Assembly (NCBI GenBank): GCA_902812465.1
Contig: CADDZE010000021.1
Coordinates: forward strand, 1 to 62,048
Origin: Acidobacteriota bacterium
GTDB lineage: Bacteria > Acidobacteriota > Terriglobia > UBA7540
Direction of reading: 5' to 3'
Length of the DNA stretch: 62,048 nucleotides
In this document: positions 12,278-14,398 of the stretch, piece by piece
Layout: each line of letters starts with the position of its first letter
Numbering within the stretch: the stretch's first letter is position 1
Made by a program: the position numbers and the translations under genes
Notes under the pieces: generated by a model
Seen by the model: the letters and a program-made list of their open reading frames with translations, nothing else
The model's database searches: none
Told to the model about the DNA's origin: nothing

Positions 12278-14398
12278 ATGCCAAGAATTCGAGGTCAGCG
12301 GCTGATGAAATACGTCGATCGGACCGTGACCGCTGCGGCCAGCGTCACTTTCAATACCATCCAGTTCTTTAACAAATACCGTCCGAACGAGACCTTCACG
12401 CCGCGGTGGAGCGATAAGCCGCTACTGAAGTCCTGGCAGAAGACCAAGCCGCCGCTCGGGTGGCCGCGTGAGACCGACTCGCTGTGCCCGGCCTGCGTGC
12501 GCGAGGCGCGCGAGCGCATCATCAACGGCGAGCAGGACCTCAACACGCTGCTCACCGAGAAAGTGGGCGAGATCAAAGCGCAAATCATCGAGCGGGACGG
12601 CCAGGTGTGGATGGTCAAGGACTGCCCCATCCACGGCCATTACGAGGATCTGATGGCGGTGGATTCCAAGTTTCTGGCCTGGATTGAGAAGAACTTCCCC
12701 GGCCGCGACATTCGTGCCCACAACGACGAGAAGTTGCACAACCACGGCTCGAGCACCATCAAGCACGGGCGCGGGTCGGTGCTGACCGTGGACCTCACCA
12801 ACCGCTGCAACATGATGTGTGACCCGTGTTTCATGGACGCCAACCAGGTGGGGTTCGTCCACGAGCTGAAGTGGCACGAGATCACCGAGATCCTGGACAA
12901 CGCGCTGAAGATCAAACCGCGCCGCCAGATGTCCGTGCAGTTCTCGGGCGGCGAGCCGACCATGTCGCCCTACTTCATCGATGCCATTCGCTATGCGCGC
13001 AAGCTGGGCTACAACAGCGTGCAGGCTGCCACCAACGGTATCGAGTTCGCTAAGAGCAAGGAATTCTGCCGCCGCGCCTTCGAGGCCGGACTGCGCTACG
13101 CTTATCTGCAGTTCGACGGCATCGGCAACGACGCCAACAGCCACCGCCACGTGGGTAACCTGTTTGACGTGAAGCTGAAGGCCATCGAGAACATGCACGA
13201 AGCGGGCATTGAGATCATCCTGGTCACCACGCTGGTGAATAATGTCAACAACGACCAGGTTGGGCCGATCATCAACTTCGCCCGCGAAAATCCCAAGAAA
13301 ATCGCCTTCATCGCTTTTCAGCCGGTTTCCTTCACTGGTCGCGACGAGCTGATCACGCCCGAGCGGCGCATGCGGCAGCGTTACACCCTGTCGCATTTGG
13401 CCCTGGACGTGAAGAAGCAACTGGGCATCACCGAGCCGACGCGGGACTGGTTTCCTATCTCGCTCATGAGCGCCTTCGCCGATTTCGCGGACCTGGTGCA
13501 CGGACCGGAGGCGCAATGGGGACAGGTGAGCTGCGGCTGCCATCCCAACTGCGGCGTCGGCACCGCCATCATGATCAACAAAGAGAACAAGGAGTGGGCG
13601 CCAGTGCCCCAGTTCCTGGATATTCCCCAGCTGGTCAAGGACATGCAGAAGATCACCGATGCGGGCCGGGGCAAGTGGTTTTCGAACTTCATGATGGGAT
13701 TGGCGCTGCTCAAAAATTACAAGCCCTTCCAGTCGCCGCCCAGCCTCGCCCTCGTCGACCTGCTGAAGAAGTTTGACAAGTCCTTTGCCTTGACCGGCGA
13801 CACCAAGAAGAAGTACGGCGACTCCAGCCCTGATCGAACCTTGGAAGACGCGCTGAAGCGGCGCTCGGACCCTTGGAACTTCCTCTTCATTGCCGGCATG
13901 TGGTTCCAGGATCTGTTTAACTACGATTTCCGCCGCACCGAGATGTGCATCATCCCGTACGCCACACAACGGGGCGAGATTTCCTTCTGCGCTTATAACA
14001 CTGGCATCGGCTGGCGCAACATCATCGAGAACATGTATAAGAATGCGACCGTTGCGGAGTGGTACCGAAAACACGGTAAGCACGAAATTTACGCGGCGGG
14101 CAAAAAGGTGCAACTGGAGAACTACGAACACTCGCTTTACGTCAATCCTGAGGATGCCGCTCGGGTGCGCCAGCGTGATCATGACGTGCCCCTGACTGCC
14201 GCCGAAGAAGAGAGGGCCCGGCGCAGGGCGGCATGGGAAGCAAAACAGGTCCGCGAACTATACGAGGAACTGGTGTTGAAGAAGCCCAAGCCGCAGCTGG
14301 TGCAGATTGGCGGCCCGCTGAACAGCGGCAGCCCTGGCAACGGACACGGCGGTTCGGTCCCGGCGTCCGTAACGGCTGAAGAGAAGGTGGCTGTGTGA
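12278..14398 (+). CDS. MJ0619/tetraether-synthase-like radical SAM enzyme
   Basis: Large radical SAM protein (706 aa) of the family that includes archaeal MJ0619, shown to join lipid tails into membrane-spanning tetraethers (Tes). The N-terminal metal site typical of this family is visible as CPAC (C70, C73) and CPIHG (C116). The radical SAM cluster is CNMMCDPC (C177, C181, C184, CxxxCxxC), followed by the SAM-binding FSGGEPT. More cysteines that could ligate auxiliary clusters are C419, C421 and C425 (SCGCHPNCG), then C557 and C571 in the conserved GEISFCAYNTG. A charged, low-complexity tail runs from about 640. It stands alone, followed by a strong terminator at 14425. The family includes other MJ0619-like enzymes (a pterin methyltransferase role has also been proposed), so lipid coupling is an inference. 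Acidobacteria are known to make iso-diabolic acid, a membrane-spanning lipid. Confidence 0.85.
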   Translation: MPRIRGQRLMKYVDRTVTAAASVTFNTIQFFNKYRPNETFTPRWSDKPLLKSWQKTKPPLGWPRETDSLCPACVREARERIINGEQDLNTLLTEKVGEIKAQIIERDGQVWMVKDCPIHGHYEDLMAVDSKFLAWIEKNFPGRDIRAHNDEKLHNHGSSTIKHGRGSVLTVDLTNRCNMMCDPCFMDANQVGFVHELKWHEITEILDNALKIKPRRQMSVQFSGGEPTMSPYFIDAIRYARKLGYNSVQAATNGIEFAKSKEFCRRAFEAGLRYAYLQFDGIGNDANSHRHVGNLFDVKLKAIENMHEAGIEIILVTTLVNNVNNDQVGPIINFARENPKKIAFIAFQPVSFTGRDELITPERRMRQRYTLSHLALDVKKQLGITEPTRDWFPISLMSAFADFADLVHGPEAQWGQVSCGCHPNCGVGTAIMINKENKEWAPVPQFLDIPQLVKDMQKITDAGRGKWFSNFMMGLALLKNYKPFQSPPSLALVDLLKKFDKSFALTGDTKKKYGDSSPDRTLEDALKRRSDPWNFLFIAGMWFQDLFNYDFRRTEMCIIPYATQRGEISFCAYNTGIGWRNIIENMYKNATVAEWYRKHGKHEIYAAGKKVQLENYEHSLYVNPEDAARVRQRDHDVPLTAAEEERARRRAAWEAKQVRELYEELVLKKPKPQLVQIGGPLNSGSPGNGHGGSVPASVTAEEKVAV

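Follow-up and report, generated by a model that had tools for sequence, protein, structure and literature searches.

The brGDGTs are in wide use for past temperature and pH, and the tail-joining enzyme in Acidobacteria is unproven. The question raised by the locus described here is whether a radical SAM protein encoded on contig CADDZE010000021.1 could be that enzyme; the window, i.e., the whole stretch of DNA that was analysed, is 62,048 nt long. The gene concerned is an ORF with an ATG start, upstream of which a purine-rich AGAGAGG was read directly in the sequence:

12278..14398, + strand: Tes-type radical SAM protein of 706 aa, proposed acidobacterial membrane-spanning lipid synthase, a tetraether synthase variant lacking [Fe4S4]N (profile, PDB match, fold and tree)

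An earlier note on this DNA had placed the ORF exactly, and the gene is real and conserved. A role of acidobacterial Tes in membrane-spanning lipids is an already published idea: in the accessible parts of the respective papers, Zeng et al. 2022 described acidobacterial Tes homologues and put forward a role for them in making brGDGTs (PMC8941075), and Halamka et al. proposed a Tes role in brGDGT for 'Ca. Solibacter usitatus' (PMC10087280), whose Tes homologues share the phylum of the 706-aa protein and are likened to it by this proposed role. The protein belongs to a distinct phylum-wide Tes-type branch without one metal site, and is probably the enzyme that joins the tails of iso-diabolic acid and brGDGT lipids.

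The top NCBIfam match of the 706-aa protein was Tes (NF045702), with an E-value of 4.5e-94 and 315.8 bits. The curated Tes cut-off of 450 bits was missed, which counts against a coupling role; at 316 bits the protein is therefore regarded as a Tes variant and not as a formal member. The TrsS profile (NF045646) gave 212 bits and missed its own curated cut-off of 490, and Pfam recognised a radical SAM domain (PF04055, E 5e-18) and an HMPTM-type zinc ribbon (PF23545, E 3e-14). By far the closest PDB sequence was GDGT-MAS (MJ0619 of Methanocaldococcus jannaschii; 7TOL/7TOM; E 1.2e-59). An AlphaFold model of the protein, built from 61 related sequences without templates, had a mean pLDDT of 89.6 and a pTM of 0.88, superseding a first model from 16 rows (pLDDT 74). 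Comparison of the predicted structure with the crystal structure of GDGT-MAS gave a Z of 43.0 for 473/498 residues at 2.4 Å, and a Foldseek TM of 0.87 by target length. The next-best fold match was MoaA, with a Z of 20 over 270 residues, and the matches to SkfB and SuiB were also well under that to GDGT-MAS. An enzyme maturing a protein or peptide substrate, like many SPASM-type radical SAM enzymes, would agree with the many maturases among the weaker NCBIfam matches and with the 212 bits of TrsS; this reading is nevertheless highly improbable, given that by fold and tree the protein belongs with the lipid enzyme, the matches to MoaA, SkfB and SuiB being far weaker, and that a comparison of the neighbouring ORFs of at least 120 aa brought up no conserved precursor gene.

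The main tree comprised 35 proteins, with 15 rows of the window type (the branch of the 706-aa protein) and GDGT-MAS as the one archaeal sequence, and the root inside Tes was left unplaced. In this tree the window-type branch (100/100, stem of 1.19 changes per column) nested among canonical bacterial Tes homologues and GDGT-MAS, with the TrsS-like proteins outside (100/100). The kinship with Tes/MJ0619 claimed in the earlier note was borne out by sequence, profile, whole-length fold and tree, and the phylogeny that it had proposed as a check, when run, put the protein inside the Tes clade (100/100), away from the TrsS-like relatives. The canonical Tes homologues of other Acidobacteriota families (L039-L053, L055) belong to the same clade and are about 28–37% identical to the 706-aa protein; unlike it, the five that were scored passed the Tes cut-off with 493–607 bits.

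In a larger tree and a scan of named genomes (at least 80 loci), the 706-aa protein grouped with genomes of Terriglobia, subdivision 13 and subdivision 2, at 80–89% identity. Horizontal transfer or a misplaced contig had been suspected because the protein is 71–79% identical to proteins of other classes as against 62–68% to those of family f2, a family of the same class with many finished genomes that is most likely Acidobacteriaceae. The suspicion was dropped in view of this grouping and of topA, which shows a similar pattern. The search for plasmid relatives of the protein returned only two haloarchaeal matches, at 24–28% identity. One gene in a record titled Betaproteobacteria (L114) fell inside the acidobacterial subdivision 2 branch, and its assembly is probably misnamed.

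According to the accessible part of its published description, GDGT-MAS holds three [Fe4S4] clusters and one rubredoxin-type iron, the latter bound by C9/C12/C33/H36; the N-terminal cluster is bound by C73/C77/C80 and a His, the SAM cluster by CX3CX2C, and the C-terminal cluster has Met439 as labile ligand, Tyr459 being conserved (PMC9433317). The PDB chain numbering in the alignment equals the published numbering plus 20, and after this shift C33, H36, Met439 and Tyr459 land on Cys, His, Met and Tyr, respectively; the alignment is therefore in register. It located the following sites in the 706-aa protein:

12485..12634, + strand: rubredoxin-like metal site, C70-x2-C73 ... C116-x2-H119 (PF23545, E 3e-14; alignment to GDGT-MAS)
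12806..12832, + strand: radical SAM cluster, C177-x3-C181-x2-C184 and F185 (aligned to MAS C98, C102, C105 and F106; PF04055, E 5e-18)
13532..13552, + strand: C419-G-C421-H-P-N-C425 (C425 aligned to MAS C338)
13895..13990, + strand: [Fe4S4]C region, M541 (Met439), C557 (C455), Y561 (Tyr459) and C571 (C470) (alignment; roles of Met439 and Tyr459 from the accessible part of PMC9433317)

All the residues that the earlier note had named are present (C70-x2-C73, C116-P-I-H119-G, C177/C181/C184, C419/C421/C425 and C557/C571), and they are invariant or nearly so among 128 relatives, far beyond chance. The FCAYNTG motif, which had been ascribed to MJ0619-like enzymes, stands at 570–576 of the 706-aa protein, but MJ0619 itself reads FCTYNT. 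In the rubredoxin-like site, which is kept in the branch (H119 in 126/128), C116 and H119 align with MAS C33 and H36, and C70 and C73 occupy the place of C9 and C12. One relative (L066 of genome G009) reads CPNCGG instead of CPxHG at this site, possibly a natural His-to-Cys ligand swap.

The SAM cluster cysteines C177, C181 and C184 are found in all 128 relatives. From its aligned position, C425 is a probable [Fe4S4]C ligand, and the other [Fe4S4]C cysteines would have the roles that the alignment assigns to them; the set C425, M541, C557 and C571, together with Y561, is kept in 128/128 relatives. Adjoining C425, C419 (128/128) and C421 (127/128) form an extra near-invariant pair of the branch. 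Equivalents of Q268, S271 and R275 are likewise kept in 128/128. R210, which contacts adenosine, has no counterpart at its own position, and an invariant R290, one position away in the alignment, would probably take its role after a one-residue shift. The likeness to archaeal Tes thus covers the near-full-length fold, the SAM cluster, the rubredoxin-like site, the [Fe4S4]C set with its Met, and the conserved Tyr. Besides its score below the cut-off, the 706-aa protein differs from GDGT-MAS by inserts, by about 100 residues added C-terminally and about 60 added N-terminally, the latter with a helix, and by the loss of the [Fe4S4]N ligands:

12284..12373, + strand: predicted N-terminal helix (residues 3-32) beyond the part alignable to the archaeal enzyme, weakly amphipathic and basic (pLDDT 77-96)
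12722..12775, + strand: residues 149-166 at the site of archaeal C73/C77/C80/H83, shortened, H156-G157-x-S159 ... G164-R165-G166 (alignment)

The hydrophobic moment of the helix is 0.58 (shuffle p 0.07), which in the model is only suggestive of a membrane-surface anchor.

All four [Fe4S4]N ligands (C73/C77/C80 and the His) are absent from the 706-aa protein. The loss is branch-wide: the equivalents of C73, C77 and C80 are missing in 128/128 branch proteins and the His in 127 of these, a lone His being left in one, whereas the canonical Acidobacteriota Tes homologues keep all four ligands in 16/16. At the site of the lost cluster H156, G157, S159 and G164-R165-G166 were invariant in a 16-protein sample. 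The earlier note's list of cluster sites is incomplete, since the protein has no ligands for one of the archaeal enzyme's four metal sites; its proposal that all cluster ligands be matched fails at this one site. Since the window-type branch is nested in Tes with the TrsS-like proteins outside (100/100), the simplest account of the loss is one derived event on a single stem. In the accessible part of the GDGT-MAS description the N-terminal cluster is located at the surface and what the remaining metallocofactors do is called not clear (PMC9433317), so that its loss is no strong argument against coupling chemistry; electrons may reach the enzyme in another way, without this cluster. In the accessible text of open-access papers neither the cluster loss nor a branch peculiar to Acidobacteriota was found mentioned, which is weak evidence. 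The absence of [Fe4S4]N can serve as a metagenomic marker by which the branch is told from archaeal-type Tes, and the branch constitutes a natural experiment on what the cluster does.

By analogy with GDGT-MAS, the 706-aa protein would be a bacterial Tes-type enzyme that joins lipids tail to tail, most likely coupling tails to iso-diabolic acid or brGDGT (rough probability 0.7). The steps are carried over from the archaeal enzyme; the residues are kept, and they would act here in the same way. Two phospholipids (diacyl- or dialkylglycerol) would be bound in a hydrophobic channel, and the SAM cluster at C177/C181/C184 would generate a 5'-deoxyadenosyl radical, which would abstract hydrogen at the terminus of an iso-C15 tail. 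The resulting carbon-centred radical could then be held at a sulfur atom of [Fe4S4]C (C425, C557, C571 and M541) until a second chain radical couples with it, forming the C–C bond of a presumed membrane-spanning iso-diabolic chain. It is possible, although doubtful, that Acidobacteriota have evolved a synthase class of their own from a Tes ancestor. Such an enzyme would have discarded the surface-exposed [Fe4S4]N and gained a membrane-binding helix; coupling would then run on a mononuclear iron and two [Fe4S4] clusters, about 9 Fe instead of 13, and could act on ester-linked iso-C15 lipids in soil bacteria exposed to oxygen.

Homologues at E <= 1e-30 were found in 168 of the 297 sampled Acidobacteriota genomes. 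When these were split by E-value, about 143 of the 297 had the window type and about 25 the canonical type only. The window type is present in all 32 sampled genomes of the same class and is single-copy in the window's genome, and the finished same-class genomes G217, G225 and G241 have no further full-length Tes-family protein. According to the accessible portions of the lipid studies, iso-diabolic acid makes up 12–49% of the fatty acids of Terriglobales isolates (PMC11354219, PMC12935467), which fits an enzyme universal in the class, and is made by Acidobacteria of subdivisions 1, 3, 4 and 6; in Chloracidobacterium it is described as a primary fatty acid (PMC12816986). The window-type gene is also present in Chloracidobacterium (genus g77), whose genome has an FMO protein and two replicons. 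The window-type branch is the best candidate for the membrane-spanning lipid enzyme of Acidobacteria. Published reports count against a coupling role: in the part of PMC10087280 that is accessible, iso-diabolic acid went undetected in 'Ca. Solibacter usitatus', an organism with both Tes homologues and brGDGTs, and a 2025 Black Sea study states, in its accessible text, that bacterial Tes activity is unconfirmed (PMC11868695). As a phylum-wide candidate with a clear cofactor difference, the branch allows a direct genetic and biochemical test.

In several families (L072-L075; f22, f29) a second copy of the window-type gene, with 50–55% identity, stands beside the main copy.

A radical SAM enzyme of Tes ancestry might carry out another reaction on the same tails (C5/C6 mid-chain methylation, chain cross-linking or desaturation), iso-diabolic acid being made by another enzyme. 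The long branch (1.19 changes per column) with its lost cluster would suit such a change, as would the 51–55% identical paralogue of some families, between which and the main copy functions may have split, and the archaeal radical SAM protein Gms, which forms a different C–C bond on tetraethers according to the accessible text of PMC11186832. We regard this reading as unlikely: none of the proposed radical-parking residues is missing, the equivalents of Met439 and Tyr459 and the [Fe4S4]C cysteines included, and methylated iso-diabolic acid is given in the accessible literature for some strains only, whereas every genome of the class sample has the gene.

The view that Chloracidobacterium has the window-type gene as its sole Tes-family gene was wrong, because the Tes profile found two TrsS-like ones more, which counts against a coupling role. 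Five such Tes/TrsS-like radical SAM proteins of about 480–540 aa (L160-L164, from Chloracidobacterium G165 and the same-class genomes G171, G094 and G125) score under both the Tes and TrsS cut-offs and keep the N-terminal cluster motif. Like TrsS, they have the radical SAM core and the rubredoxin-like site in common with the 706-aa protein but fall outside the Tes clade (100/100), and the four copies of type L162 (L161-L164) have FDTFN or FDTYN for FCTYN, i.e., they are without the third [Fe4S4]C Cys, the Met also missing. Mss (Sahonero-Canavesi et al. 2022), compared here by its description in accessible text, is similar by its proposed reaction, the coupling of iso-C15 tails to iso-diabolic acid, and Mss models reportedly share the Tes catalytic architecture (accessible part of PMC13274423). 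Iso-diabolic acid could accordingly be the product of Mss-type or TrsS-like proteins, with the window gene acting on another hydrophobic substrate; Mss is reported as a bacterial synthase with some Acidobacteria counted as carriers (PMC11868695, in its accessible part), and TrsS-like relatives do occur in Chloracidobacterium and some same-class genomes. This appears rather improbable, as type L162 is found in just 4/32 same-class genomes and in none of the three finished ones, yet the lipid is general in the group, and as L161-L164 are devoid of the third [Fe4S4]C cysteine and Met.

For the step from iso-diabolic tails to brGDGT-type lipids, a Ger-like protein of 1170 aa encoded elsewhere in the window's genome (contig C39, L159 3632-7144) could turn ester into ether links. 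It has PF01869 (BcrAD_BadFG) in two stretches and PF09989 (DUF2229) with E 1.7e-48; two BcrAD_BadFG domains plus DUF2229 is the BB architecture published for Ger, and the same paper calls Ger/PlsA assignment by sequence alone not definite (PMC13274423, accessible part). Tes-type and Ger-like genes in one genome are the predicted parts for ether-linked membrane-spanning lipids, which is consistency and not proof. The Ger/PlsA marker DUF2229 was found in 70/297 Acidobacteriota genomes and in 7/32 of the same class, patchy like the ether-linked lipids, whose distribution in acidobacterial cultures is described in accessible text as patchier. Upstream of the Ger-like gene, on the same strand, a 593-aa protein is encoded (L159:1057-7144 for both), resembling a split Ger/PlsA-PlsR pair; this protein had no Pfam match and none in NCBIfam at E 1e-30.

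The Tes-type gene is flanked by topA (9247-11679) on one side and by a DUF2911 gene (14622-15143) on the other, with none of its neighbours conserved phylum-wide, confirming that it stands alone. Comparison of the neighbours (ORFs of at least 120 aa) across the phylum revealed no lipid-gene operon around it, which counts against a coupling role. No tRNA or other RNA gene was recognised in the gap 11680-12277, and a promoter scan for the Tes-type gene gave nothing above chance. The terminator that had been predicted downstream is real:

14424-14463 (approximate), + strand: intrinsic-terminator-like hairpin, 16-bp stem, loop of 8 and short T run (z = -4.8 vs shuffles)

Among 27 loci between L089 and L130 (subdivision 2/Acidiferrales), a gene for a TPR-like protein is often found upstream of the Tes-type gene on the same strand, in many of them at about 1.1–1.5 kb; there is none in the window. 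Elsewhere in the window, a Porphyromonas-type peptidyl-arginine deiminase family gene (33944-35032) adjoins the ftsZ/mur cluster.
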